Origin: Natronosalvus halobius
Lineage (GTDB): Archaea; Halobacteriota; Halobacteria; Halobacteriales; Natrialbaceae
Reading direction: 5' to 3'
NCBI RefSeq assembly: GCF_024138145.1
Contig: NZ_CP099997.1
Coordinates: forward strand, 310,001-374,000
Length of the DNA stretch: 64,000 bases
Shown: positions 11,166 through 59,580 of the stretch, piece by piece
Position numbering within the stretch: the first letter of the stretch is position 1
How the letters are laid out: every line of letters begins with the position of its first letter
Program-made: the position numbers and the translations under genes
Notes under the pieces: generated by a model
The model's input: only the letters and a program-made list of their open reading frames with translations
Databases searched by the model: none
What the model was told of the DNA's origin: nothing

Positions 11166-12521
11166 TCATCGTCGATAGCGTTCGATGTGGGCCGGTAATC
11201 GGTTCGCGACGGTCCCGCCGAGTCGGTCGCGGATCGACCCGAGCAAGCCGTTGGGGACGAACAGTACGAACAGCACGAAGACGATTCCCAGGTACAGCGG
11301 GGCGCGTCCGTCGATCACCGTATTGATCACGTCGAGGAACGTCACGCCGGCGACGTCCGCGTTCAGGACGCTCTCGGGGAGTCCCCCGCGGAGGTACGGG
11401 GCGAGCCCACCCTGCTGGGAGGAGAGCACGTCCTCGAGCCACTCGAACGCGAACGCGCCGAAGAGCGGTCCGGCGAGCGTCCCGATACCGCCGATGATCG
11501 TCACGATGAGCGCGTCGGCAGTGACGAGGAAGTAGAACGTCGTGTCGGGGGCGGCGCTGCTCCGGTAGGCCGCGAACAGCGCACCCGCGATGGCGGCGAA
11601 GAAGGCGCTCATGGCGAAGGCAGCCATCTTGTACCAGAAGACGTTGTAGCCGACGGCGCGGGCGCGTTCCTCGTTCTCCCGGATGGCGATCATCACGCGA
11701 CCGAACGGCGAGTGGATGATCCGCTGCATCGCGAAGTACGAGAGGACGACGATGATCCCGATGGCGTAGTAGGAAGTCATCGTCGCCGAGACGTCGATGC
11801 CGGTTCCGAGGACGTTCTCGAAGCTATCGCCGGCGAGCCGGCCGAGTGCGACCGAGAGGGAGTCGACGTAGGGGACGCCCACTTCGGGAGTCGGTCCGGC
11901 GAGGTTCGGTCCCTGCTGGGGGTTCGAGCCGACGTAGTCCCAGTTGCGCACGAGCTGGTAGAGCACCTGGGCGAACCCGAGGGTGAGCATGGCGAAGTAC
12001 ACCCCCGACAGCCGGAACGAGACCGCGCCGATCGCTAGCGCGAAAACGACGGCGAGCAGCGCCCCCAGCAGCATCGTCACCATGAACGGCGTGCTGTCGG
12101 GGAGCCCCGGCACTTTCCCGTTGGCCACGAGGACGATGAAGTACGCTCCGATGCCGTAGAACGCGGCGTGACCGAACGAGAGGTAGCCCGTGTAGCCGCT
12201 GACGAAGTCGAAGCTCATCGCGAACAGCCCCAGGAAGAGCATCGCGATCAGGAACGTCGTCGCCGGGAGGAACGCGTCGAATAACGCGCCTGGATCGACG
12301 ATTCCGACGCCGACGTCCAGCGCCGGAAATCCGGTTAGCGGGCCGTAGACGATGGGGTACACCGCGAAGAACGCGATGACGGCGACGTGCGCCAGGTGAT
12401 CGCGGAGGTACTGGCGGGGCCAGTCACTTCCAGCGTGACCGCCACCTCGGGGCTGGGTCTCCTGGACGGGCGTTTCATCGCGCTCGTCCTCGGCCTCGAG
12501 GTCAGAGGTGGGGGAGCTAAT
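11166..12521 (-). CDS. livM: Branched-chain-type ABC transporter permease LivM
   Basis: A membrane permease with about nine to ten hydrophobic segments and the typical GYLSFGHAAFYGIGAY and ITIIGGIGTLAGPLFGA loops of LivM. The clearly conserved part starts at the GTG at 12362. However, the frame continues upstream without a stop as a hydrophilic N-terminus (SSPTSDLEAEDERDE...) and a first membrane helix (AHVAVIAFFAVYPIVYG). No ATG, GTG or TTG starts this extension. An ATT overlapping the TAG stop of livH (12519-12521) is the best candidate, giving 451 residues. If GTG 12362 is used the protein has 398 residues and loses half of its first helix. Substrate: branched-chain amino acid or an organic acid. 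Confidence 0.85.
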   Translation of the reverse strand: MSSPTSDLEAEDERDETPVQETQPRGGGHAGSDWPRQYLRDHLAHVAVIAFFAVYPIVYGPLTGFPALDVGVGIVDPGALFDAFLPATTFLIAMLFLGLFAMSFDFVSGYTGYLSFGHAAFYGIGAYFIVLVANGKVPGLPDSTPFMVTMLLGALLAVVFALAIGAVSFRLSGVYFAMLTLGFAQVLYQLVRNWDYVGSNPQQGPNLAGPTPEVGVPYVDSLSVALGRLAGDSFENVLGTGIDVSATMTSYYAIGIIVVLSYFAMQRIIHSPFGRVMIAIRENEERARAVGYNVFWYKMAAFAMSAFFAAIAGALFAAYRSSAAPDTTFYFLVTADALIVTIIGGIGTLAGPLFGAFAFEWLEDVLSSQQGGLAPYLRGGLPESVLNADVAGVTFLDVINTVIDGRAPLYLGIVFVLFVLFVPNGLLGSIRDRLGGTVANRLPAHIERYRR

Positions 12522-13743
12522 GGCCGCCCACCTCCTCGACGCCGTACAGTCCCTGTGGGCGGATCACGAGGGCGATCACGAGCAACGTAAAGAGCGTGAC
12601 CTCCGAGATTCCCGGGAAGGGCACGGTTCCGGAGGTGAACAGCCACGTTGTCAGCGAGTCCGCCAACCCGACGATCAACGCGGCGACGACTGTCCCCTTG
12701 AACGAGCCGAGCCCGCCGATGACGACGACCACGAACGCGTACAGCAGGACCTCGAGGTTGAGCAGCACGCTCGGGCCGGCGGTCGGGTCCCACATGAGGA
12801 AGACGCCGCCGACGGCCGCGAGACCGGTTCCGAGGCCGAAGACGATGGTGAACGCCCGGCGGACGTCGATCCCGAGGGCCTCGACCATCTCCGAGTCCTC
12901 GCTGCCGGCTCGGATGTAAAGGCCGTACAGCGTCCTGGTCAGGAACGCCCAGACGATGACGGCCAGGATCGCACCGGCGACGATGGCGAACAGGTAGAAT
13001 CCGCGGATACGAGCACCGAACAGCGTCAACAGGATCTCAGACGGCGCGTCGAGCGCCGACGGAATCGTCGCCTGTGCCCCGGACCACTTCGGCTCGGGCT
13101 GGATGCCACGAGCGGTGGCGACGATTCTGGCGACTTCCTCCAGGATGAGCCCCACGCCGAAGGTCAACAGGATCTGGTACATGGGCGTGCGGTCGTAAAT
13201 GGGCCGGACGAGGCCGACCTCGAGAGCGGCGCCGACGGCTGTCAACAGCGCGAAGACCATGGCCACGACGACGACGAAGAAGAGGATTCGGGTGGCTGCG
13301 CCCGCGCTGGAGGCGACGAGCAGGACCATCAACACGCCGCCAACGTAGGATCCGACCATCGCGAACGCGCCGTGAGCGAAGTTGAGCACGCCCATCAGCC
13401 CGAACACGAGGGTGAGGCCGATGGCGATGATGAAGTAGATGGACGCCTTACCGAGGCCCTCGATGAGGATGCGGGCGACCGTGTCGAGGCCCTCGATCTG
13501 GGCTAGAGCGGCGACCGTTCCGAGCCACTCGAGAGCGGCCACAGAGGCGACCGTGCCGATCCACCCGATCCCGAACGAGGATTCGAGTAGTCCGACGACA
13601 CCGGGGCTGACCCCGACCTCGACCATCGTCAGGAACGAGACGAGCAGCGCGTTCGTGCCGAGCGGGAGGGACGAGAACGAACTGATGGTACCGAACGAGC
13701 CGATCGTGCCGAACGAACCGACCGCGCCGAACGAACCGATCAT
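12517..13743 (-). CDS. livH: Branched-chain-type ABC transporter permease LivH
   Basis: The 408-residue membrane permease pairs with LivM. The core with about eight membrane segments starts near residue 100 (ASIYFIIAIGLTLVFGLMG) and includes the family motifs GVLNFAHGAFAM and VVVVIGGLGSFKGTVV. The N-terminus is long for LivH by about 90 residues and begins with a three-fold hexapeptide repeat of the type GSFG(T/A)(I/V), coded by 18-bp repeats. The start is secure because ATG 13743 overlaps the livF stop as ATGA. Its stop TAG at 12517 overlaps the putative ATT start of livM. The extension looks partly hydrophobic (LLVSFLTMVEVG) and could add a helix. Confidence 0.9.
   Translation of the reverse strand: MIGSFGAVGSFGTIGSFGTISSFSSLPLGTNALLVSFLTMVEVGVSPGVVGLLESSFGIGWIGTVASVAALEWLGTVAALAQIEGLDTVARILIEGLGKASIYFIIAIGLTLVFGLMGVLNFAHGAFAMVGSYVGGVLMVLLVASSAGAATRILFFVVVVAMVFALLTAVGAALEVGLVRPIYDRTPMYQILLTFGVGLILEEVARIVATARGIQPEPKWSGAQATIPSALDAPSEILLTLFGARIRGFYLFAIVAGAILAVIVWAFLTRTLYGLYIRAGSEDSEMVEALGIDVRRAFTIVFGLGTGLAAVGGVFLMWDPTAGPSVLLNLEVLLYAFVVVVIGGLGSFKGTVVAALIVGLADSLTTWLFTSGTVPFPGISEVTLFTLLVIALVIRPQGLYGVEEVGGH
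13672..13743 (-). repeat. 18-bp tandem repeat coding GSFG hexapeptides in LivH
   Basis: Three 18-base units, differing by a few bases, code successive IGSFGA, VGSFGT and IGSFGT blocks at the very N-terminus of LivH. A decayed fourth block (ISSFSS) follows. The plus-strand core is CCGAACGAACCGA with variations. The period is a multiple of three, so the frame is kept. Confidence 0.8.
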
Positions 13744-14438
13744 GCCGAGAGATACCTCCGTATCTGTTCGTCGTCGGCACTAACGCCCTCCGTCGACCCC
13801 GACTCGACGACCGTGCCGTGATCGAGCAGGTAGAACCGGTCGGCGAGGTCCATCGCCAGCGGGAAGTTCTGCTCGACCAGCACCATCGTGGTGTCCGTAG
13901 AGACGTCGCGCAACGCCTCGACGACCTGCTCGACGATCAGCGGGGCCAGCCCCTCACTCGGCTCGTCGACCAGGAGGAGATCGTTTCCGCCGACGATGCC
14001 CCTGGCGATGGCCAGCATCTGCTGTTGCCCGCCGCTCAGGTTTCGAGCTTCCTTCTCTCGAAAACGCTCGAGGTCCGGGAACAGGTCGAACATCTCGTCT
14101 CGCAGCACGTCGAAGTCGTCCTCCGGGCCGACCGCGACCCGCAGGTTCTCCTCGACGCTGAGGTAGCCGAACATCCGTCGCTCCTCAGGCACCCAGCCGA
14201 TGCCACGGGTGGCGACCTCGTGGGTCGGGAGACCGGTGACGTCCTCGCCCGCGTAGCGAACCGTTCCCTCCCGCGGCGGCGTCAACTGGAGGATCGTCCG
14301 CAGGGTCGTCGTCTTGCCGACGCCATTGCGTCCGATCAGGGCGACGATTTCGCCCTCCTGGACGTGCAAATCGACGCCCTGGAGAATGTGGCTCTCGCCG
14401 TAGTACGTGTGGACGCCCTCGAGTTCGAGCAGGCTCAC
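13740..14438 (-). CDS. livF: Branched-chain-type ABC transporter ATPase LivF
   Basis: The 232-residue ATPase has Walker A GRNGVGKTT, the Q-loop region, the ABC signature LSGGQQQMLAIARG, Walker B LLLVDEPSEGLAP and the H-loop/switch segment MVLVEQNF, where LivF proteins have Gln-Asn as seen here. It drives uptake with LivG, LivH and LivM at the cytoplasmic face. GTG 14438 was chosen because it overlaps the livG stop as GTGA and begins at the family start (SLLELEGVHTYYG). A much longer opening upstream is antisense-like reading of livG. Confidence 0.94.
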   Translation of the reverse strand: MSLLELEGVHTYYGESHILQGVDLHVQEGEIVALIGRNGVGKTTTLRTILQLTPPREGTVRYAGEDVTGLPTHEVATRGIGWVPEERRMFGYLSVEENLRVAVGPEDDFDVLRDEMFDLFPDLERFREKEARNLSGGQQQMLAIARGIVGGNDLLLVDEPSEGLAPLIVEQVVEALRDVSTDTTMVLVEQNFPLAMDLADRFYLLDHGTVVESGSTEGVSADDEQIRRYLSA

Positions 14439-15343
14439 GATGCCACCCCCGTCGACGACTCGTTCTCGTCGTCCGTCCTGGACGCTCCGTTGGTGCTGCC
14501 TCCCTCGCTGTCGCCGTTGCCGTCGCCGTCGTATCCCCCCAGATACGCCCGCTGAACGGCCTCGCTCTCGCGAACCGTCTCGGGTTCGCCGTCGGCGATC
14601 AACTCGCCGCGGTTGAGGACGGCGATGCGGTCGCTGATCCCCATGACGACGTCCATGTTGTGCTCGATCAGCATGACCGCGTGATCGGCGGCGACGTCTT
14701 CGATGATCGCCGTCACCTGGTCGACATCCTCGCTCGAGACGCCTGCGGTCGGTTCGTCCAGCAACAGCACGTCCGGGTCGCCGGCCAGTGCGATCCCGAT
14801 CTCGAGGTTGCGCTTTTCGCCGTGGCTCAGGTTCTGGGCGGTCCGGTCGGCTTCCGCGGCGAGGCCGACACGCTCCAGGATGGCCTCGGCCTCGGCGTAG
14901 TGCTCGTCGAAGGCGCCGACATTGCGCCAGAATTGCCAGGAGTCGTTGCCGCGGTGGGCCTGGACGGCCACGCGGACGTTTTCGAGGACTGAAACGGTCG
15001 GAAAGACGTTCGTGATCTGGTAGGATCGGTGGAGGCCGAGTAGTGCCGTCTCGTGGGGCGGGGCGTGGGTGATGTCGACCCACTGCGCGGATTCGTCACT
15101 GGTGGTTACGGTCGCATCAATGTGTTCGGTACCGCTACGGTTGTTACCACTACTCGGTGCGAACTCGACCGTCCCCTGCGTCGGCTCGAGAACGCCCGTC
15201 AACAGGTTGAAAAACGTCGTCTTCCCGGCCCCGTTCGGCCCGATCACCGAGCAGAGTTCGTCAGCCTCGAGGCTGAAGTCGACGCCGTCGACGGCGGTGA
15301 TACCGCCGAACTCCTTCGTCAAATTGGTCGTCCGGAGTACCAT
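14435..15343 (-). CDS. livG: Branched-chain-type ABC transporter ATPase LivG
   Basis: The 302-residue ATPase has Walker A GPNGAGKTTFF, the LivG-type FPTVSVLENVRVA segment, signature LSHGEKRNLEIG, Walker B LLLDEPTAGVS and H-loop LIEHNMDVV. An inserted stretch of about 30 residues (around 68-95, Ser/Asn/Thr-rich) separates the first beta strands from the LHRSYQI segment. An acidic, Gly/Asp-rich tail of about 35 residues closes the protein and is typical of haloarchaeal variants. It sits 5 bp downstream of the substrate-binding protein gene, so it is co-transcribed. Confidence 0.94.
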   Translation of the reverse strand: MVLRTTNLTKEFGGITAVDGVDFSLEADELCSVIGPNGAGKTTFFNLLTGVLEPTQGTVEFAPSSGNNRSGTEHIDATVTTSDESAQWVDITHAPPHETALLGLHRSYQITNVFPTVSVLENVRVAVQAHRGNDSWQFWRNVGAFDEHYAEAEAILERVGLAAEADRTAQNLSHGEKRNLEIGIALAGDPDVLLLDEPTAGVSSEDVDQVTAIIEDVAADHAVMLIEHNMDVVMGISDRIAVLNRGELIADGEPETVRESEAVQRAYLGGYDGDGNGDSEGGSTNGASRTDDENESSTGVAS

Positions 15344-15348
15344 GACGA

Positions 15349-16797
15349 TCAGTTCAGCGAACAGCTAGCCTCGTCGGCCGGCATCATGACCTCATCGGCC
15401 GGGAGGGTCTCGACCGGTTCGCCCGGCATCACGGCGGCGTCCCAGTACTCGGCGACGTCGTCGGTCGTGGGGACTGGCCAGGCGACAGTCATCGCCGAGG
15501 CCGCCTGGTTGTTGTGCTCCTGGAAGGTGTACGCACCCTCGCCCTTCGGCGTGTCCGTGACTGTCATGCCGCGCATCGCGTCGGCGATGTCGCCGCCGTC
15601 GATCGAGCCGGTCTCGTCGATGGCCTGGACGAGCGCCGAGCCGCCGACGAACGTCCCCGCGCTGAACAGGTCGGGCATCAGGCCGTAGGCCTCGGTGTGC
15701 ATCTCGATGAAGGCGTCGTTGATCTCGTTGTCGTACTGGTTCCAGTGGTAGCGGGTCGTGAAGGGGCCGAGTCCGGACTCCTGGATGTCCTCGGCTGTGA
15801 AGTCCTCGCCGAGGGTCGCCTCGACGGTTTGACCCGTAATCTGGGTCGTCACGAGTTCCGCGAATCCGCCGAAGGCCTGGATCTCTTCGTACGCCATCGC
15901 CGTTGGGAGAAACTCCGGCAGCGTGATGAAGGTGAACCCGCCGACGACGCCGTCGGCACCCTGATCGAGGGCCTCGTCGAACAGCCCCTCGAACTCGCTG
16001 TACCCCGGCTCGACGAACCGCGGTTCGAGCACTTCGACGCCCTCGTTCTCGAGTACTTCGGTGTAGTTGTTCGCGACGCCTTCGCCGAAGGCACCCTCCG
16101 CGGCGAAGATGGCGACCGTCGAGACGTCACCCTGCTGGGCGACGTATCGACCGCCCGCACGGGCGTCCATCCCCGTGTGTTCACTCGCCCGAAAGAGCAG
16201 GTCGTGGCAGTGCTCGCTCGAGGCGGTGATGTCGGCGTCGGCTGCCGGCCCCGCGATGTACGGAATCCCGGCCTCGTCCAGGATGTTCGCCGAGATTCGG
16301 CGCGCGGAGTCGGAACTCGAGGCGCCGAACAACAGGTCGACCTCCTCGTCCAGGACGAGGCTTTCGGCGGCCTCCTGGGCCGTGTCCGGGACGAACCCGG
16401 TGTCCTCGACGACGAACTCGAAGGTTGGACCGTCCTCGGGGTCGAGGGTGTGGGTTCCCGTCGTCATCTCGGTGATGGGGTCGATGTCGTATTTGTAGGC
16501 AATCCCCGAGTAAAAGCCCATGAGGCTGATCTGGCCGTAGTACTCGAGGTCGCCGGAGACGGGCTGGAGGGCGCCGATGCGAATCGTCTCGTCGGAGACC
16601 TCCTGGCTGCCGTCGCCGTTTCCGTTTCCGTTTCCGTTCCCGTTTCCGTTGCCGCCATTGCCACCGTTCCCGTCGCCGTTGCCGCCGTTGCCGTTCCCGT
16701 TCTCGTCCGCGATACACCCTGCCAGTCCGGCCGATCCGAGCGCGGCGAGCGCGCCCGTTCGTCGGAGCACATCTCGCCGGTTGGTACCTCGTGACAT
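15349..16797 (-). CDS. livJ: ABC transporter substrate-binding lipoprotein (LivJ/LivK family)
   Basis: The 482-residue periplasmic-type binding protein carries a Tat motif TNRRDVLRRTG and lipobox GLAGC. A low-complexity linker of Asn-Gly repeats (about residues 33-62) follows. The mature domain starts at ETIRIGALQPVSGDLEYYGQ and belongs to the type-1 periplasmic-binding fold (Peripla_BP_6), with the AIFAAEGAFGEGVAN hinge region. It should capture the substrate outside the membrane and hand it to LivH/LivM. A TATA-like TTGATATAC (16839-16847) lies about 45 bp before the start, and a duplicated AT-rich element lies further upstream. It is the first gene of the liv operon. Confidence 0.93.
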   Translation of the reverse strand: MSRGTNRRDVLRRTGALAALGSAGLAGCIADENGNGNGGNGDGNGGNGGNGNGNGNGNGNGDGSQEVSDETIRIGALQPVSGDLEYYGQISLMGFYSGIAYKYDIDPITEMTTGTHTLDPEDGPTFEFVVEDTGFVPDTAQEAAESLVLDEEVDLLFGASSSDSARRISANILDEAGIPYIAGPAADADITASSEHCHDLLFRASEHTGMDARAGGRYVAQQGDVSTVAIFAAEGAFGEGVANNYTEVLENEGVEVLEPRFVEPGYSEFEGLFDEALDQGADGVVGGFTFITLPEFLPTAMAYEEIQAFGGFAELVTTQITGQTVEATLGEDFTAEDIQESGLGPFTTRYHWNQYDNEINDAFIEMHTEAYGLMPDLFSAGTFVGGSALVQAIDETGSIDGGDIADAMRGMTVTDTPKGEGAYTFQEHNNQAASAMTVAWPVPTTDDVAEYWDAAVMPGEPVETLPADEVMMPADEASCSLN

Positions 16798-17164
16798 ACT
16801 AGGTCTCTAGATGGATTCCCCCTCCTAAGCAGGGACGGTTGATATACGAACCTCGGGGCGCCGGCGCTCGTTTCGAACGTTCAGTCTCATTATAGAATAT
16901 GTATTGTTCAGTCTCATTATAGAATAAGTATTTATACAATATGGAAAATGCAGTAAAGGCGACCGTTGATCAGTCGATCTGGCTCCGCGGATCAGTGAGT
17001 CGGGGTCGCCGTCGTCGAGGGAGCTATAGAAGCAAAAAACGAACGACTTACTGCCTCGAGCGGGGCCTCGTCTGTCAGTATCGGTCCCTCCGCGCGTCAC
17101 GTTTTCGAGTACTTCGTCACCCTCGGCCACGCCCGGAACTCGAGGCCGTATCGTCGGAGACAGT
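16798..17164. other. liv operon promoter region, 367 bp
   Basis: No gene. On the minus strand, reading towards livJ, one meets a very AT-rich patch (16880-16950), a 21-bp direct repeat (16879-16926), then the TATA-like element at 16839-16847 and a GGAGGGGG run about 25 bases before the livJ start. The right part (16950-17164) is the trailer after the DUF35 gene and shows nothing clear. An apparent frame reading NTYSIMRLN twice is only the translated direct repeat. Confidence 0.6.
16879..16926 (-). repeat. Perfect 21-bp direct repeat upstream of the liv promoter
   Basis: The sequence GTTCAGTCTCATTATAGAAT followed by A occurs at 16879-16899 and again, identical, at 16906-16926, with a 27-bp spacing. 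It is AT-rich in a GC-rich genome and is centred about 35 to 80 bp upstream of the livJ TATA box. That position suits paired operator sites for a regulator, or duplicated promoter elements. Seen directly; binding is inferred. Confidence 0.7.
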
Positions 17165-17536
17165 TCAGCCGAAAACCGGCACCGGCTCGTCGACCTCGAG
17201 CACGTCCGAGAACGCAACAGCGTCGCCGATGTCGGCGTCGCTCTCGAGACGGGCGGTCACGCGGGCGTTCCCTTCCGTGCCGAGATCGATCACCGCGACG
17301 CGGTAGCCGCCCTCGAAAGCCGCCGGGGCGACGGCGATGGTCGTCTCGGTATACACCGTTCCCTCCGTCGGAAGCTCGACTGTCTCGATCTCACGGGAGC
17401 CACACTCGTTGCAGGCGGCCTTCGGCGCCGCCGTCTCGTTGCCACAGGCGCCACAGCGCTGGCCCAGGAGTCGACCGTCGCGGAGCGCCGCGGTCCACTC
17501 GGCGTGGGTCAAAGGGTCGGGGAGTGTGTCGCTCAT
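17165..17536 (-). CDS. DUF35 Zn-ribbon/OB-fold protein (thiolase partner)
   Basis: The 123-residue protein has an N-terminal helix (THAEWTAALRDGRLLGQRC) and a zinc ribbon with two cysteine pairs (RCGACGN and ACNECGS). An OB-fold domain follows (VYTETTIAVAPAAF, VAVIDLGTEGNARVTARL). DUF35 proteins form complexes with thiolase-superfamily enzymes and are thought to channel acyl-CoA between active sites. Its ATG (17536) overlaps the thiolase stop as ATGA, so the two are translationally coupled and probably form one complex. Confidence 0.92.
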   Translation of the reverse strand: MSDTLPDPLTHAEWTAALRDGRLLGQRCGACGNETAAPKAACNECGSREIETVELPTEGTVYTETTIAVAPAAFEGGYRVAVIDLGTEGNARVTARLESDADIGDAVAFSDVLEVDEPVPVFG

Positions 17537-18702
17537 GCGTCCACCTCCAGGATGGAGACGATGGTGGTTCCGGCGTCGCCACCCAGGTTGTGCGCGAGCC
17601 CGCGACGGGCGCCCTCGACCTGGCGCTCGCCGGCCTCTCCGCGGAGGTGTTCGGTGAGTTCGACCAGTTGTGCGACCCCGGTGGCGCCGATGGGGTGCCC
17701 CTTCGCTTTGAGGCCGCCGCTCGGGTTGACCGGGATGCGGCCGCCGAGGGCGGTTTCCCCGTTCGCGGCGGCCGGGCCGCCCTCGCCGTCCTCGAAGAAG
17801 CCGAGCGCCTCGATGGCCAGCACCTCCGCGCCGGTAAAGCAGTCGTGGAGTTCGACCACGTCGACGTCGTCGGGGCCGACGCCGGCCTGCTCATAGGCCT
17901 GGTCCGCGGCATCTCGAGCCGACTGGGTCGCCGTGAAGTCGGCCTTGTCCGCGAGCGGAATCGTGTCGGTGGCGTGGCCCACGCCGGAGACGGCGACGGA
18001 CTCACTTGAGAGGTCGGCCGCGGCCTCTTCGTTGGCGACGACGACGGCCGCCGCACCGTCGGAGAATGGACAACAGTCGAACAGGTGGAACGGCGAGGCG
18101 ACGATCGGACTCTCGAGGACCTCCTCGACCGTCGTCTCCGAGCCGAATTGTGCGCGCGGGTTGTAGGTCCCGTGGCGGTGGTTCTTGACCGCGACGGCTG
18201 CGAGGTCTTCCTCGGTCGTGCCGTACTCGTGCATGTGCCGCGTCGTCAACAGACCGAAGACGCCGGGGAAGGAGAGCCCGGTCGGCTGTTCGTACTGGCG
18301 ATGGGAGGCCGAGGCGAAAACGGACGTCATCTCGGGTGTGTCGAGCCCCGTCGTCGGGGTGCAGCGTTCGACCCCGCCGACGAGGACGATGTCGTGTTGA
18401 CCGGCCTCGACCGCGCGGACGGCGTGTTTGAACGCGTTCGAGGAGGTCGCACAGGCGTCCTCGTAGCGCTGGCAGGGGATACCCGCCAGGCCGATGTGAC
18501 TCGCCAGCGTTGGCGCGAGGTGGGTGTCCCGCTCGGTTTGCCCGCCCATGGCGTTCCCGAGATAGAACGACTCGATGGCGGGGGCGTCGACGCCCGCGTC
18601 GTCCATCGCGTCGAACGCCGCGCTCGAGAAGAGTTCCGGAAGCGGCCGGTCGTGGACGCCGAAGTTGGTCATGCCAACCCCGACGATACGTGCCTGGTGC
18701 AT
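17533..18702 (-). CDS. Thiolase (acetyl-CoA acyltransferase family)
   Basis: The 389-residue thiolase has the nucleophile Cys84 in EDACATSSNA, a VELHDCFTGAEVL segment and the C-terminal GGLKAKGHPIGATGVAQ with the catalytic His; the second Cys typical of degradative thiolases is not obvious. This pattern matches the archaeal SCP2-thiolase-like group coupled to DUF35 partners. It could make acetoacetyl-CoA or cleave 3-oxoacyl-CoA. The neighbouring acyl-CoA synthetase and MaoC hydratase favour acyl-CoA degradation, but this is an inference. ATG 18702 (MHQARIVGVGMTNFG) is the usual family start; a start 9 codons upstream is possible. Confidence 0.92.
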   Translation of the reverse strand: MHQARIVGVGMTNFGVHDRPLPELFSSAAFDAMDDAGVDAPAIESFYLGNAMGGQTERDTHLAPTLASHIGLAGIPCQRYEDACATSSNAFKHAVRAVEAGQHDIVLVGGVERCTPTTGLDTPEMTSVFASASHRQYEQPTGLSFPGVFGLLTTRHMHEYGTTEEDLAAVAVKNHRHGTYNPRAQFGSETTVEEVLESPIVASPFHLFDCCPFSDGAAAVVVANEEAAADLSSESVAVSGVGHATDTIPLADKADFTATQSARDAADQAYEQAGVGPDDVDVVELHDCFTGAEVLAIEALGFFEDGEGGPAAANGETALGGRIPVNPSGGLKAKGHPIGATGVAQLVELTEHLRGEAGERQVEGARRGLAHNLGGDAGTTIVSILEVDA

Positions 18703-18774
18703 ACTCGAACGAAAGTGTTCCGTGCTCAAAAACGATGTGAAATTCCCGTCTAATCGCCGGATCCGCGAGTGCCG

Positions 18775-19476
18775 TTACTCGAGGTCCTCGAGCGCATCGA
18801 CGACCCGCCGGAGGACCTTTCGCTCTGCGCGACGGACGTTCTTCGAGACGGCCGTGTCGGAAACGTCGAACTCGTTGGCGAGCATCTGCAGGGTCGCTCC
18901 CCGGGGCTGGTCAAAGTAGCCCTTCTCCGCCGCGACCGCGAGCGTCTGGCGTTCGACGTCCGAGAGAGACCGACACCCCTCGATCAGGTTGCTCGCCGCC
19001 TCGGCGTTGTCGAGCACGTCAAAGAGGTCGGGAAGGTCGAGGGCGTCTTCGGCGAGGACATCGAACTCGTTGTTGCGCTCCAGGTCGGCGAGGGCGTCGT
19101 CGGCCGTCCGGTTCTCGTCGAAGCCGACCTCCCAACGCTCGCTGCCGTCCTCGATGTGGAACGGGCCGGTGATGTAGCCGCCGTTGTCCCGAATGACACG
19201 CATCGCGTTCGTCTCGTCGATGACGGTTCGCAGGAGCGCCGTTCCCTCGTGTTTCTTGAAGAGCGTGCACTCGTACATGTTGTCGTGGGCTTGCAGGGTC
19301 GACAGGCCGGATTCGAGTGTCGACCGGTCCTCACCCTCGACCATCATCCGCGTCTCGAGTTCGCGTCGCTGGCCGTCGAACTCCCACTGAACGGCGGTGA
19401 ACGACACGTCGTGATCGTCGGTCGTGTCGATGAACGGGCAGTCGTACTGCTCCATGTCCAGGGTGAGGTCGATCAT
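18775..19476 (-). CDS. Bat-type HTH transcriptional regulator
   Basis: The 233-residue protein has an N-terminal sensory region (MIDLTLDMEQYDCPF) of the type found in haloarchaeal bat-like regulators. The C-terminal HTH domain includes LSDVERQTLAVAAEKGYFDQP and LANEFDVSDTAVSKNVRRAE, the PF04967 (HTH_10) pattern. No PAS or GAF motif is obvious. It lies between the thiolase operon and the acyl-CoA synthetase, all on the minus strand, so it is a candidate regulator of this island. ATG 19476 was preferred to a GTG two codons upstream. Confidence 0.88.
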   Translation of the reverse strand: MIDLTLDMEQYDCPFIDTTDDHDVSFTAVQWEFDGQRRELETRMMVEGEDRSTLESGLSTLQAHDNMYECTLFKKHEGTALLRTVIDETNAMRVIRDNGGYITGPFHIEDGSERWEVGFDENRTADDALADLERNNEFDVLAEDALDLPDLFDVLDNAEAASNLIEGCRSLSDVERQTLAVAAEKGYFDQPRGATLQMLANEFDVSDTAVSKNVRRAERKVLRRVVDALEDLE

Positions 19477-19552
19477 TGACACGTATTGTTAGTTAAACGG
19501 CATAACCTTACCCGTCGATTTCGGGACGGAGCGCGGGTGAACAAAGCGCGAT

Positions 19553-21265
19553 TCACGGTTCGACCTCCGCTCCGTCGTCGGTCTCGTTTCGATTCTCGTC
19601 GCCTCCCTCATCCTCACTTCGATCCCCGGTGCTCTCGCCCGCTTCCCTTCGGTCGTCGTCGCTTGCGTCGCTCTCGTCGCCCCCGAACCGATCCTCGAGC
19701 GCGACTCGATCGATCTTCGACGGGCCGCTCATCGGCATCTCGTCGACGAACGCGAGGTACTTGGGAATCTTGAATCGAGCGAGTTTCCCCGAGAGGAACA
19801 CCTCGAGGTCCGAAAGCGCCAGAGCGTCCTCGGAGGTCGCCGCGTTCGCCCGGGCTTCGTCGGTCAGTTCGACGACGGCCTTTCCGACCGTTCCCCACTG
19901 CTCGTCGGGGACGCCGACGACGATTGCTTCCGCCACCGCGTCGTGATCGGCAATCACGTCCTCGACCTCGGGCGGGTAGACGTTCTCGCCGCCGCTGACG
20001 AACATGTTCTTCTTGCGACCCTCGATGTGGTAGAAGCCGTCGTCGTCCACACGGGCAAGGTCGCCGGTCGACACCCATCGCTCCTGCTCGCCGTCGTCCC
20101 CGAACGTCTCGCTGGTCGCTTCTGGGTTGCGCCAGTAGCCCGCCGACCCGTGCGGACCGCGCAACTCGAGCTCGCCGATCTCTCCGGCTTCGAGTTCTTC
20201 GCCGCGCTCGTCGACGATCCGGGCGTCGGCGTGGAGAACCGGTTTGCCCACGCTCGCGACCTTTCCAGGGTCATACTCGTCGGGCATCGCAAAGTTGTTC
20301 GGACCGATCTCGGTGAGGCCATATCCCTGTGACATGTCGACGCCGCGGTCGCGCCAGGCCCTGACGATCGAATCCCGGCAGGGGCCGCCGCCGCTCTTGA
20401 CGAACCGGAGACTCGAGAGGTCGGTCCGCTCCCAGTCGTCGTGGGTCGCCATGGACCGCAACACCGCGGGGACGGCCACGAGAATCGTTGCCTCGTGGGT
20501 TTCGACCTGCTCCAGGACGCGCCGGGGGTCGACCTCCCGGTCGATGACCAGCGTGCCCCCCATGTGGATCAGCGGCAGGGTGATGACGTTCCAGCCGCCG
20601 GTGTGAAAGTTGGGGAACACCATCGGCGTCACGTCGTCCGGACGGAGTCCCCACGCGGTAATCGTGTTCGTGGAGTTCCAGTACAGCGAGCCGTGGGTGA
20701 TCGTCGTCTCCTTCGGCGTCCCCGTCGACCCGCCAGTGTGAAGCAGCAGGTGCGGATCTGAAAGGGCTCGTTCGCGGGTCTCGACGGGGCCGTCGTCCGC
20801 CGGAAGCCGGTCTCGATAGACGTCCCACCCGCCAGCGGGTTCGTCGGTCTCGATTTCGAGCACCGCCGGGTCCACGCTCGAGCGGGCCATCGCGTGCTCG
20901 AGGCGCTCGACGAACGGCGACTCGATGACGAGCAGGTTCGGGTCGACGAGTTCCAGCAGCTCGGCCAGCTCCGGCGGTGCGAGTCGGTACGACAGCGGCG
21001 CGAGCACGCCGCCGGTTTTGCCGGTCCCGAAGAACAGGTCGAAGACCTCGAGGCGGTTTCGCGAAACCAGGGCGACGCGGTTCCCCTCGCAAACGTCGTA
21101 GTCCTGGAGCAACCGAGCCGTGCGGTTCGCCCGCGCCTCGAGGTCCGCGTACGTGGCTCGCGTGTCGTCGGTGGCGTCGACGATGGCCGTCCGATCGGGC
21201 GAGAGCGACGCCCGCCTGGCGGTCCAGTCGCCGACCCAGCCGTAGTCGTCGTCGCTCCAGTTCAC
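19553..21265 (-). CDS. AMP-forming acyl-CoA synthetase
   Basis: The 570-residue ANL-superfamily enzyme activates a carboxylic acid with ATP and CoA. Motifs seen are the P-loop LLLHTGGSTGTPKE, the acyl/aryl pocket segment QGYGLTEIGPNN, STGDLARVDDDGFYHIEGR, the hinge RKKNMFVSGGENVYPPEVED and the C-terminal catalytic Lys in SGPSKIDRVAL. The last 40 residues are a disordered acidic tail. The substrate may be a fatty or branched acid. It overlaps the downstream hydrolase gene by 4 bp on the coding strand's 5' side (the ab-hydrolase stop and this ATG form ATGA), so the two are coupled. Confidence 0.93.
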   Translation of the reverse strand: MNWSDDDYGWVGDWTARRASLSPDRTAIVDATDDTRATYADLEARANRTARLLQDYDVCEGNRVALVSRNRLEVFDLFFGTGKTGGVLAPLSYRLAPPELAELLELVDPNLLVIESPFVERLEHAMARSSVDPAVLEIETDEPAGGWDVYRDRLPADDGPVETRERALSDPHLLLHTGGSTGTPKETTITHGSLYWNSTNTITAWGLRPDDVTPMVFPNFHTGGWNVITLPLIHMGGTLVIDREVDPRRVLEQVETHEATILVAVPAVLRSMATHDDWERTDLSSLRFVKSGGGPCRDSIVRAWRDRGVDMSQGYGLTEIGPNNFAMPDEYDPGKVASVGKPVLHADARIVDERGEELEAGEIGELELRGPHGSAGYWRNPEATSETFGDDGEQERWVSTGDLARVDDDGFYHIEGRKKNMFVSGGENVYPPEVEDVIADHDAVAEAIVVGVPDEQWGTVGKAVVELTDEARANAATSEDALALSDLEVFLSGKLARFKIPKYLAFVDEMPMSGPSKIDRVALEDRFGGDESDASDDDRREAGESTGDRSEDEGGDENRNETDDGAEVEP

Positions 21266-22137
21266 TCGCGATCACCGGTCTCGAGTGTGGCTTCTGCCGT
21301 GGATTCGCCCCCGGCCTCGAGATCTGCCTCGATGGGGTTCGCCTCGAGGAAGTCGAACACCCGGTCGTTCACCCAGTCGGACCGCTCGACGAAGAAGAGG
21401 TGGTGACCGCCGTCACAGGCCTCGAATCGGGCCTGCGGGATCAGGTTCTCGAGCAGATGGCCGTTCTCTACGGGGACGACCTGGTCGTCGCTCCCGTGGA
21501 GGATCACTACTGGGACATCGAGAGCCGACACCTCGTCCGCCGCGTCGAACTCGGCCACGCCCGCCGCCTGGGCCTGCCGGGCCGCGTCGCTCGCGTCGCT
21601 CTCGAGTCGCCAGTCGACGATGTCGTCGGCCAGGTCGGGATTCTCCTCGAAGAATGTGGGCGAAACTGCGGGGGCCATTCGATGACGAATCCGTTCGCGT
21701 TCGTCGGCATCCTCTGGAACCGCGAACATCGCTTCCTGGGTCTCCTCGGGCACCGGCACCGCCTCCGGGCCGCCCGGAGTCGTACAGAGCAAGGAGAGGG
21801 TCGCCGCGCGGTCGTACTCGAGGGCGTAGCGCTGGACGATCATCCCGCCCATGCTCGCCCCGACCAGGTGGGCGCGGTCGACACCCGCGTCAGCGAGCAC
21901 GGCTTCGAGGTCGCCCGCCATCTCCTGGATCGTGTACGGTCCCTCCGGTGCATCGGAGTCGCCCGTGCCGCGGTTGTCCCACAGGATCGTTCGATACTCG
22001 TCGGCCAGCGCCTCTCGCTGCCAGCGCCACATCCACCGGCCGTAGCCGAGTCCCTCGACGAAGACGACGGGCTCCCCATCGGGGCGTCCGCCGACCTCGT
22101 AGGCGAGTTCCACGTCGCCGTTGGTCGCTCGAGTCAT
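21262..22137 (-). CDS. Alpha/beta hydrolase
   Basis: The 291-residue soluble enzyme has the alpha/beta-hydrolase fold. The nucleophile elbow is GASMGG, the oxyanion region is VVFVEGLGYGRWMW, the Asp-bearing segment is VVILHGSDDQVVPVENG, and the His is in CDGGHHLFF. This is the general 3-oxoadipate enol-lactonase/lipase-like class; the substrate is unknown. It is the promoter-proximal gene of the pair with the acyl-CoA synthetase (ATGA overlap), which suggests that it releases the acid that the synthetase activates, perhaps by ester or lactone hydrolysis. A 25-residue Glu/Thr-rich tail follows the fold. Confidence 0.9.
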   Translation of the reverse strand: MTRATNGDVELAYEVGGRPDGEPVVFVEGLGYGRWMWRWQREALADEYRTILWDNRGTGDSDAPEGPYTIQEMAGDLEAVLADAGVDRAHLVGASMGGMIVQRYALEYDRAATLSLLCTTPGGPEAVPVPEETQEAMFAVPEDADERERIRHRMAPAVSPTFFEENPDLADDIVDWRLESDASDAARQAQAAGVAEFDAADEVSALDVPVVILHGSDDQVVPVENGHLLENLIPQARFEACDGGHHLFFVERSDWVNDRVFDFLEANPIEADLEAGGESTAEATLETGDRE

Positions 22138-22224
22138 GCTAGCCTAGTTATCGCCCGCGCTCAAGTACTCCGACGTTCGAGTATCAACCCGTGACTACAC
22201 GCGGGTTGCGACGAAAGAAGACGT

Positions 22225-22623
22225 ATGTCGACTGCCAGCCCCGGCGACCGGAGCGAGGTCAGCCAGCGAATCACGACCGACCACATCGAGCGCTTCGCCG
22301 ACCTCACCGGCGACGAGAACCCGCTCCACCTCGATCCCGAGTACGCCGCAGAGGGCCTCTTCGACGGCCCCGTCGCCCACGGCATGCTCGTGGCGGGCCT
22401 CATCTCGAGTGCCCTCGCTTCTCTCCCCGGAGACGTCGTCTACCTCTCCCAGGACCTCTCGTTCGAGGCGCCAGTCCACCCCGATCAGACGGTCACCGCG
22501 ACGGCCGAGGTGCTCGAGGACCTGGGCGACGACCGCTACCGCGTCGAGACGACCGCTCGCGTCGAGGACGACGTGGTCGTTTCAGGCGAAGCCACGGTAC
22601 TCTCGCTCGCACACGAGGGCTGA
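22225..22623 (+). CDS. MaoC-type (R)-specific enoyl-CoA hydratase
   Basis: The 132-residue hot-dog-fold protein has the hydratase-2 motif FADLTGDENPLHLDPEYA, with the catalytic Asp and His, and AHGMLVAGLISSAL. Such enzymes hydrate trans-2-enoyl-CoA to (R)-3-hydroxyacyl-CoA in acyl-CoA degradation or PHA supply. It is divergently placed from the alpha/beta hydrolase by an 87-bp region, so both promoters lie between them. It belongs functionally to the surrounding acyl-CoA island. Confidence 0.92.
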   Translation: MSTASPGDRSEVSQRITTDHIERFADLTGDENPLHLDPEYAAEGLFDGPVAHGMLVAGLISSALASLPGDVVYLSQDLSFEAPVHPDQTVTATAEVLEDLGDDRYRVETTARVEDDVVVSGEATVLSLAHEG

Positions 22624-25370: not shown

Positions 25371-25450
25371 GCGATGCTGAAGGCGGTGGTAGTGACGGGG
25401 GCGTTAGTGCCAGAGCGATGCTGAAGGCGGTGGTAGTGATGGGGGCGTAG
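25371..25450. repeat. 44-bp-period direct repeat, two copies
   Basis: The core GCGATGCTGAAGGCGGTGGT, continuing as AGTGAYGGGGGCG, occurs at 25371-25403 and again at 25415-25447 with one internal mismatch (C/T). The flanks (GTTAGTG and GTAGTG) continue the similarity. It lies in the non-coding gap just upstream of the DUF106 gene. It is most simply a recent tandem duplication; a regulatory role is unknown. Confidence 0.75.
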
Positions 25451-25744
25451 TGACAGAGCGGTGGTGACGGCCCGTTGATGATCGAACGGTGGTGACGGTC
25501 AGATTATCTCTCACTCGACCCGAGGCCTCGGTGATCAGTGATCCGCGAGCGACTACGCGCTAGTGAGTCGTTCGTAGACGCTCGTGACGGGGGACCACCA
25601 CTGTTTCAACGACGCCTATCCGTTCTGGCGTTCGGTTCAATCCGTCCTATCCCTGCGGAAAGGGGTGACTGAGCCACCGGACCGTCTGGTGGTTTCACGG
25701 CTCCGGCGCTGTGAACATTGGTTTCGAACAATCGTATCTGGTAG

Positions 25745-35326: not shown

Positions 35327-35390
35327 GTGATGGTAGTTGGCGAGGTATGAGATGGTAGTTGGCGAGGTATGAGATGGCAGTTGGTGAGAA
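35327..35390. repeat. 22-bp tandem repeat, about 2.9 units
   Basis: Units at 35327-35348 and 35349-35370 differ only in the second base (GTGATGGTAGTTGGCGAGGT followed by AT versus GAGATGG...). A third, partial and mutated unit lies at 35371-35390. The repeat lies upstream of the Tat lipoprotein and SRPBCC genes in a purine/GT-rich stretch (35215-35400) whose other parts, such as GGTGAGGTGGCGGG, look like weak copies of the same theme. Confidence 0.75.
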
Positions 35391-36617: not shown

Positions 36618-36678
36618 TCACCGGGGATAGGGGGCGAAAGGGTTTTGGCTTTACGCCGGGTGGGATGTGGGATCGTCC

Positions 36679-36734
36679 GGTGTCCGGTGTCCGGTGTCCG
36701 GTGTCTGGTGTCTGGTGTCCGGTGTCTGGTGTCG
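36679..36734. repeat. Heptamer tandem repeat GGTGTCY, eight units
   Basis: Eight consecutive 7-base units read GGTGTCC, GGTGTCC, GGTGTCC, GGTGTCT, GGTGTCT, GGTGTCC, GGTGTCT and GGTGTCG. It is a short microsatellite that could change length by slippage. It lies between the HAD and DUF6735 genes, outside coding sequence. Confidence 0.88.
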
Positions 36735-57531: not shown

Positions 57532-59580
57532 CTAGAGGTCGTCGGCGGCGACTTCCTCGCCGTCCCACTCGAGCCAGAAGGCGGGGTCGGCGTCGGTATC
57601 GGCGTTCTCGGCCTCGAAGGTGACGATGTCACCCTCGACGACGAAGCCGTCGCCCCAGCCGTTGCCCGTCAGCCCCTCGACTTCGTAGTACCCGGTCTCG
57701 TAGTAGGTGATGGTGTCGTTGTCGTTCGCCGAGATCGGGTTGCCGGAGGGGGACGTCCCGAGGTCGGCAGCGGTGACAGGCCCGTTGGCGATGAACCGGT
57801 AGCGCACGCGGTCGGCCCCCGGTTCGGTCAGGATTGCGAACTCGGCCGGTTCCGGTTCGTCGTCTTCGTCGTTCTCACCGGTAAGGTCGTCAACGGCGAT
57901 CTCTTCGCCGTTCCACTCGAGCCAGAAGGCGGGGTCAGTATCGACGTCGGCGTTTTCGGCCTCGAAAGAGATAATATCACCCTCGATGATGAAGCCGTCG
58001 CCCCAGCCGTTGCCCGTCACCCCTTCAATCTCGTAGGTGCCGTCTTCACGCTCGGTGATCGTATCGTTGCCGTTCGCCGAGACCGGGTTGCCGGAGGGCG
58101 ACGTCCCGAGATCGGCAACCGTAACTGGACCGTTGGCAACGAATCGGTAGCGCACGCGGTCGGCGCCGGGTTCCGTCAGAATCGCCAGTTCGTTCTCGCC
58201 GCTGGTATCGTCTTCTGTTCCTTCTTCCTTGTCAGCGACCAATTCGTCGACGGCGATCTCCTCGCCGTTCCACTCGAGCCAGAAGGCCGGATCAGCGTCT
58301 GCGTCGGCGTTCTCGGCCTCGAAGGTGACGATATCGCCATCGATGGCGAACGCATCGCCCCAGCCGTTACCCGTGAGCCCCTCGACCTCGTAGGTGCCGT
58401 CTTCACGCTCGGTGATCGTATCGTTGCCGTTCGCCGAGACCGAACCACCCGAGGGCGAGGTGCCGAGATCGGTGGCGGTGACGGGTCCGTCGGCGACGAA
58501 CCGGTAGCGCACGCGGTCGGCGCCGGATTCCGTCAGAATTGCCAGTTCGTTCTGGTCCCCGGTGTCGTCGGTCTCCTCCTCGTCTCCATCGTCGCCGCTA
58601 CCACTCTCCCCACCGTCGTAGTTTAGCCAGTCCTCGCGGGTCCCATTGACCAGCATCACGTGATTGTCGAAGTAGATCGTGTACGGATCGTTGTCCTGGT
58701 AGAGGTCGTACCCGTGCGGACCCGCGTACTCGATCCCGTTTCCGTCGGCGGACCGCCACGCGAAGTTCTCCCGCTCGTAGGCGAGTTCGTCGTTCACCCA
58801 CGCGCGGAAGACGCCGTCGTTGTTCATCGACCCGCTCGAGGTGTACGTATTCAGCTTCTGGTAGGTTTCGATCTTCACCCACTCGTTCATCGGCATCTGG
58901 ACCCGGTTGCCGAACTCGAGGTACGGGGTCGTGCTGTCGGTGAGTCGCGCGTCGTAGGAGTAGACGAAGAACGTGTACGTGTCGGGGTGATCGTGGTTCT
59001 CCCGACGGGTGAAGCCGAGCCGGACCGACCACCCGTCTTCGCCCGTGAACGGGGGCGGCGTGACGAAGTTTCCGCTGTCCTGGTCTCCCTCGCTCCGTAA
59101 TCCAGCCCAGAAGAACCGCATCGTGTTGTTCTCCGAGAGCCACATCCCATTGGGGTGGACGTAGAACCGCTGGTACAGCTCGTCGACCTCCGTGTCGTAG
59201 TGGTCGTCGAACGGGTACACCGTATTCGCGCTCATCTGGTCGCCGTCGAGATAGTGCGCACAACTCGTCTCTCCCGTTCGGGAGGTGCTCGACGTGATGT
59301 CGGGGCTCGTCCTCGAGCGCTGGTTCCACACGTCGTAGACGTCACCCAGACCGTTGTACGATGACGACGGATCGTAGTACTCGTCGTAATCGATCTCGAT
59401 CAGATCCTGGTCGTGAGAATCGGCTGCGGCGGTGCCCGAACTCAGGAGCGCCCCACCGGCAATCGCGGTTGAGCCGAGTACCTTGAGGTACGTTCTGCGT
59501 TCGATGTCGTTCGCCGTGCTGTTCTCTTTACCGCTTTTCAGTGTGTTATCGATTGCTCGTTTCGAGCGCTCACGTGCCAT
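57532..59580 (-). CDS. Tat-exported beta-sandwich protein with tripled C-terminal domain
   Basis: The 682-residue protein has a Tat motif IERRTYLKVLGSTAIAGG and a cleavable signal. An N-terminal region of about 320 residues (from IEIDYDEYYDPSSSYNG to NHVMLVNGTRED) resembles polysaccharide-lyase/concanavalin-like beta sandwiches, with FYVHPNGMWLSEN and FWAGLRSEGDQ segments. An acidic linker follows, then three copies (about 88 residues each plus linker, period 348-357 bp) of a beta domain starting LAILTE.GADRVRYRF and ending DPAFWLEWNGEE. The catalytic site is not assignable. It is probably an exported glycan-binding or glycan-cleaving protein. The second gene of the pair (59887-60852) lacks the tripled domain. 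Confidence 0.82.
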   Translation of the reverse strand: MARERSKRAIDNTLKSGKENSTANDIERRTYLKVLGSTAIAGGALLSSGTAAADSHDQDLIEIDYDEYYDPSSSYNGLGDVYDVWNQRSRTSPDITSSTSRTGETSCAHYLDGDQMSANTVYPFDDHYDTEVDELYQRFYVHPNGMWLSENNTMRFFWAGLRSEGDQDSGNFVTPPPFTGEDGWSVRLGFTRRENHDHPDTYTFFVYSYDARLTDSTTPYLEFGNRVQMPMNEWVKIETYQKLNTYTSSGSMNNDGVFRAWVNDELAYERENFAWRSADGNGIEYAGPHGYDLYQDNDPYTIYFDNHVMLVNGTREDWLNYDGGESGSGDDGDEEETDDTGDQNELAILTESGADRVRYRFVADGPVTATDLGTSPSGGSVSANGNDTITEREDGTYEVEGLTGNGWGDAFAIDGDIVTFEAENADADADPAFWLEWNGEEIAVDELVADKEEGTEDDTSGENELAILTEPGADRVRYRFVANGPVTVADLGTSPSGNPVSANGNDTITEREDGTYEIEGVTGNGWGDGFIIEGDIISFEAENADVDTDPAFWLEWNGEEIAVDDLTGENDEDDEPEPAEFAILTEPGADRVRYRFIANGPVTAADLGTSPSGNPISANDNDTITYYETGYYEVEGLTGNGWGDGFVVEGDIVTFEAENADTDADPAFWLEWDGEEVAADDL
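57540..58545 (-). repeat. Three tandem in-gene domain repeats, about 350 bp each
   Basis: The three units, seen by the sequences GCGATCTCCTCGCCGTTCCA at about 58253, GCGATCTCTTCGCCGTTCCA at 57896 and GCGACTTCCTCGCCGTCCCA at 57548, recur at 348-357 bp. They are nearly identical at the DNA level even at third positions, so the tripling is recent or homogenised. Linkers differ in length by a few codons. Confidence 0.85.

Follow-up and report, generated by a model that had tools for sequence, protein, structure and literature searches.

A predicted palindromic operator and a tandem repeat upstream of the liv operon of Natronosalvus halobius

Upstream of the liv-type ABC operon of the Natronosalvus genome, a conserved 16-bp palindrome was identified which is predicted to serve as the operator of a linked HTH_10 regulator. 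Close to it lies a tandem repeat, and the joint reading that we consider probable, based on sequence comparison, is that this repeat is a young duplication and that an HTH_10 regulator acting at such palindromes drives liv, abH and MaoC. The repeat matters little; the conserved operator and the predicted HTH_10 regulon are the worthwhile result. The features concerned, numbered from the first letter of the window (the whole stretch of 64,000 nucleotides that was analyzed), are as follows.

11166-15343, minus strand: livG, livF, livH and livM-like transporter genes
15349-16797, minus strand: livK-like substrate-binding protein (Peripla_BP_6), encoded first in the liv operon
16824-16829, minus strand: CTTAGG, putative non-canonical TATA position, located by eye and with a presumed role
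16837-16852, minus strand: predicted conserved palindromic operator GGTTCGTATATCAACC, 16 bp, ending 39 nt before the livK ATG
16879-16905, no strand assigned: repeat copy 1, 27 bp, nearer the liv operon
16906-16932, no strand assigned: repeat copy 2, 27 bp, one mismatch, farther from the liv operon
17165-18729, minus strand: Zn-ribbon/OB-fold (ChsH2-type) gene and thiolase gene of the same cluster
18775-19482, minus strand: HTH_10 regulator (HVO_2525_N and HTH_10 domains), candidate binder, helix SDTAVSKNVRR
21262-22137, minus strand: abH, alpha/beta hydrolase, predicted target of operator 2
22174-22189, plus strand: second, weaker predicted operator CGTTCGAGTATCAACC, midway between the divergent abH and MaoC genes
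22225-22623, plus strand: MaoC-like dehydratase, predicted target of operator 2

The tandem repeat

The perfect 21-bp direct repeat with 27-bp spacing that the original prediction had described is present: the 21-mer GTTCAGTCTCATTATAGAATA occurs at 16879-16899 and 16906-16926, 27 nt from start to start, and forms the perfectly matching core of two 27-bp units which are arranged head to tail and are 26/27 identical. Both units are located in the 367-bp space between the livK-like gene (15349-16797) and the Zn-ribbon/OB-fold gene (17165-17536), each on the minus strand, and the regulator gene, placed 1.9 kb away by the same prediction, ends approximately 1.85 kb from the repeat. A chance origin was excluded because the 21-mer, with up to three mismatches allowed, had no match in 100 shuffles of the window. 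Close direct repeats are nevertheless not a rare kind of feature. The window contains six direct repeats that are exact over 20 nt or more at a spacing of 10-60, and 29 clusters of comparable close direct repeats were found in the DNA of relatives (0.94 Mb from 78 loci, mostly coding); the repeat upstream of liv is a real but ordinary duplication.

A whole-genome search for further copies, as suggested along with the original prediction, returned only the two known ones from 3.85 Mb at up to three mismatches. At the same stringency none of seven congeners, one of them represented by a genome only 66% complete, contained a match. When the window was aligned with four congeners, repeat copy 2 fell opposite a gap, which measured 27 nt for G007, G002 and G004 but 20 nt for G003, and the single-copy counterpart of repeat copy 1 was CATTCTATAG in G007 and CATTTTATAG in G002, each with a short TATA-like element. 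Based on this distribution, we read the 27-bp repeat as a young, species-specific duplication within an AT-rich part of the region upstream of liv, for which replication slippage is probably the simplest explanation. With short tandem duplications of the slippage type it shares two head-to-tail units, restriction to one lineage and an intergenic location; it differs from them in lying beside a promoter and in being AT-rich, a composition which is unusual since none of the relatives' 29 clusters is AT-rich.

The repeat had been proposed to bind an activator, and near-perfect tandem copies near a promoter are what two 27-bp transcription factor sites in an array would look like. We consider such an array very improbable, and the activator role is left unsupported: the unit is confined to this one place in the genome and went unmatched in the seven congeners, one copy falls in a 27-nt gap in three of the four aligned, no resemblance of the unit to the conserved operator was seen, and the window has other close direct repeats. 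The repeat unit may still not be neutral, because G007 and G002 keep a single TATA-like element there. Each copy carries TTCTATAATG on the minus strand, and CTATAG or TTATAG stands at the aligned position in G007, G002 and G004, approximately 43 nt above the palindrome in the first two (counted by eye) and farther away in G004. Together with an AT-richness that sets the repeat apart from all 29 clusters of the relatives, this would fit a duplication of the CTATA TATA-like element of a second, upstream liv promoter, so that this species would have a modified and perhaps constitutive promoter above the regulated one. That explanation is unlikely; loci L005, L006 and L007 (from G003, G005 and G001) have no counterpart that is clear by eye, and the CTATA element is short and lies in AT-rich DNA.

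The palindrome upstream of livK

The palindrome emerged when the livK upstream regions of the window and 20 relatives were compared. Its arms have the form GGTT-N8-AACC in the window and mostly GTT-N8-AAC in the relatives. The liv TATA box of the original prediction is presumably GTATATC on the minus strand, which is indeed TATA-like but forms the centre of the palindrome at 16837-16852. If it were read as a TATA box, 25-28 nt above the transcript start, a leader of approximately 20 nt would be implied. Many relatives have ACATGT at the centre, which does not resemble a TATA box, at a similar distance from the start codon.

Since no more than 30 of 195 genomes contained the exact pattern GGTTNRYATRYNAACC, a matrix was used in its place. 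It was symmetric and was built from the 21 livK sites of the window and its 20 relatives, where the best site is found by construction (lowest training score 13.2 bits). When the matrix was applied to 58 held-out livK loci, which are not independent trials because many come from related species, a site of at least 12 bits no more than 450 nt upstream was detected in 55, as against 0.3 expected from shuffles. The three misses were L089, where a site of 11.0 bits stands at the same place as in relatives, and L122 and L125, where nothing was found and there is doubt about either the start of livK or the stretch that was scanned. A separate collection of 79 named loci, overlapping in species, gave the operator in 72 of the 78 usable (L137 was left out as having too little upstream DNA); L146, L148, L179, L189, L196 and L197 were below 12 bits. 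The distance from operator to called start was 35-42 nt in 49 of 74 named loci and took other values in 25, start codons having been called crudely and 4 of the 78 lacking a called start.

In the genome of the window (G000), the palindrome with up to two mismatches was located at 14 places, compared with 2 for the reversed control, and only the livK site was exact. The 13 inexact places (L033-L045) were screened for a start codon 30-45 nt away and a frame of at least 60 aa. Three of these had one, namely L033 (34 and 35 nt, GTG), L039 (44 nt, 485 aa) and L044 (34 nt, 69 aa), and none was taken to be a target.

Two tandem operators were observed upstream of livK in L084, L093 and L105, consisting of GGTTGATATGTGAACC and, nearer the gene, TGTTCACATGTTAACC or CGTTCACATGTTAACC. 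For the comparison of helices and operators described below, the one nearer livK was chosen by hand.

The HTH_10 protein as candidate binder

The original prediction had also treated this stretch as regulatory and had pointed to the bat-type regulator gene close by. The regulatory reading stands and the HTH_10 regulator probably matters, but its likely site is the palindrome at 16837-16852 and not the repeat. The protein matched HTH_10 (PF04967) over residues 173-224 with 59.4 bits, against a curated cut-off of 23.1. It could not be assigned as Bat, the BAT domain scoring 19.5 bits, under the cut-off of 25.8, and Pfam at E 0.001 gave no GAF or PAS match. As judged from gene linkage and from the agreement of recognition helix with operator, the linked HTH_10 protein is most likely the binder of the palindrome.

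An HTH_10 gene was present within 6 kb of livK and on the same strand in 68 of 79 loci (15/21 training and 53/58 held-out). The remaining 11 had no linked HTH_10 gene in the DNA examined; L054 ends with its contig, and for L123 (G205), one of the 11, a relative is located past the opposite end of the liv genes (L213). After these 11 and L122, which has no operator, were dropped, helix and operator could be compared in 67 of the 79 loci, using operator classes that were written after the sequences had been seen. A recognition helix beginning SDT was accompanied by a TATA-type operator in 16 of 16 loci, and SKP by an ACATGT, ACATAT or ATATGT centre in 46 of 48, the other two being unclassified. 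The three loci with an STA helix comprised one TATA-type and two unclassified operators. Every helix type forms a single clade on the HTH_10 tree, and the match between helix and operator therefore rests on few evolutionary changes.

Operator distance correlated with the distance between DNA-binding domains when livK distance was allowed for (partial r 0.42, p 0.0005, 2000 permutations), and showed no correlation with the N-terminal part when the DNA-binding domain was allowed for (partial r -0.22). The distance between whole HTH_10 proteins explained operator distance worse than livK did (partial r 0.09, p 0.09, versus 0.43), a result which would suit a palindrome bound by some other regulator, with the linkage merely reflecting conservation of the cluster. 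So would the situation in G024, G032, G110 and G118, which have the livK operator and whose best HTH_10 match is only 52-54% identical; in these genomes perhaps an HTH_10 paralog serves or another protein binds. In favour of the HTH_10 protein, G001 has its liv operon and its HTH_10 cluster at separate places and keeps an operator at each. We nevertheless hold a different regulator to be rather improbable, since the type of operator agrees with the type of helix and similar palindromes are found at HTH_10 paralog loci.

The paralog set consisted of 20 loci surrounding HTH_10 genes that were either different ones or unlinked. In 11 of them one or more sites reached 12 bits, whereas a chance rate of approximately 0.1 site per 20 kb would suggest less than 1 for the set. 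For the paralog helix SKTAVSMN, five of six loci (all but L214) had a palindrome in the space separating the HTH_10 gene from a divergent gene, 39-46 nt before the start of the divergent gene, which we take to be short-chain-dehydrogenase-like from its glycine motif. For SKTAASKN, a palindrome stood 40 nt upstream of the divergent gene in two of three loci, and the remaining locus had a site elsewhere.

These paralogs include a second HTH_10 protein of the window's own genome, 52% identical to that of the window (G000:C1:1705849-1706547; L205 3347-4048), and the palindrome CATTGATATGTTAACA lies between its gene and a divergent dehydrogenase-like gene.

Promoter geometry, predicted targets and related systems

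In many loci a TTTGC-like element was seen by eye approximately 7-9 nt below the palindrome, and its counterpart in the window is CTTAGG. For Haloferax volcanii, 72% of protein-coding transcripts are described as leaderless (PMC4983044). If this pattern applies here, the operator would abut the core promoter and the TTTGC-like element would be at the TATA position. We propose that a dimer of the HTH_10 protein (18775-19482) would bind the palindrome at 16837-16852 and assist TBP/TFB in using the poor TATA-like element immediately below, giving a liv transcript that may be leaderless or nearly so. The effect would presumably be activation rather than repression, possibly in response to a substrate.

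The HTH_10 protein might instead bind the palindrome and repress, blocking the core promoter until substrate is present, as could be imagined from an operator which adjoins the presumed core promoter in most loci examined. We regard repression as doubtful. A poor TATA position below the operator (CTTAGG in the window) suits an activated promoter, and in Haloferax mediterranei the nos and nor promoters are reported to be significantly weaker once a similar semi-palindrome is mutated (PMC10062603).

Under the activation model, the single operator at 22174-22189 would allow the HTH_10 protein to drive abH and MaoC in both directions. This site, CGTTCGAGTATCAACC, is 36 nt from the start codon of abH and 35 nt from that of MaoC. 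It scores 10.4 bits, a range in which 0.8 sites (of at least 10 bits) are expected per 64 kb, and is counted as an operator because of its position and conservation: it is identical at the same place in L048 and L049 and differs at a single base in L050 and L053. A scan of the window together with 78 loci, at a threshold of 13 bits, yielded 136 sites, of which 54 were unassigned to livK, some of these being livK-promoter sites missed by the assignment. In 30 of the 79 loci, abH and/or MaoC had a site 36-38 nt upstream, and in 22 of the 30 one palindrome stood between both divergent starts, 36-38 nt from each; four loci had a site 37 nt before thiolase. These counts include loci from which the genes are absent. 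In the window, no good site was found at the expected position upstream of DUF35, thiolase, HTH10, AMP-ligase, HMGS-like, livM or livH.

It is plausible, though we would not put it higher, that HTH_10 proteins of this type make up an order-wide family which reads GTT-N8-AAC through the two or three residues at the head of the recognition helix (DT, KP, KT) and which switches on leaderless promoters lacking a proper TATA box, including divergent pairs that share one operator exactly midway. With its near-fixed promoter geometry, its gene targets and the match between helix and operator, the predicted operator bears on how HTH_10 proteins choose their genes, and also on the workings of promoters with poor TATA boxes.

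HTH_10 proteins, among them NarO, are abundant in haloarchaea, but only a small number of their target sites are known. In Halobacterium, the upstream activator sequence of bop adjoins the TATA box. No description of the livK operator was found among the open-access papers listed, a set that mostly leaves subscription journals outside. The nearest described motif found was the denitrification semi-palindrome CGAAYATDKTYG of H. mediterranei and other haloarchaea, with the form CGAACATGTTCG at nos and nor, which is likewise a short inverted repeat upstream of haloarchaeal genes (PMC10062603). Its mutation is reported there to have significantly lowered the activity of the nos and nor promoters, while the drop for nir and a slight rise for nar were non-significant. 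The form CGAACATGTTCG shares AACATGTT with many ACATGT-type operators of the window's relatives. The ends differ, being CG...CG in the denitrification motif and GTT...AAC in the livK operator, as do the genes and the distance to the ATG, which is described there as 66-79 nt for nir, nor and nos and is mostly 35-42 nt here. The window operator, as GGTT-N8-AACC, could not be classed with the CGAAC-type denitrification operator CGAAYATDKTYG. The same source gives NarO as a regulator proposed in H. volcanii, and reports the gene or a homolog to be absent from H. mediterranei (PMC10062603). Bat of Halobacterium is described as an activator with a C-terminal helix-turn-helix, acting with an upstream activator sequence at bop (PMC3184054); the window protein resembles it in the C-terminal helix-turn-helix and differs in having an HVO_2525_N domain.

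Several other features were observed. The gap between livK and the OB-fold gene is approximately 1.1-1.2 kb in G002 and G003 (L049 9001-10091 and L050 9001-10247), compared with approximately 340-370 bp in the window and G007. By eye, the longer gap includes the apparent C-terminus of a dehydrogenase-like gene, and an operator-like site of 12.7 bits lies above it (L049 10021, L050 10155). The livK-like protein of the window has a low-complexity Asn-Gly linker (16610-16706) after a signal-peptide-like start and a lipobox-like cysteine. Elsewhere in the window, a 357-bp unit occurs in tandem at 57538-58570 (2.9 copies, 80% matches), and short tandem repeats are located at 25371-25471 (approximately 44 bp, 2.3 copies), 35329-35388 (22 bp, 2.7 copies) and 36675-36733 (7 bp, 8.4 copies).
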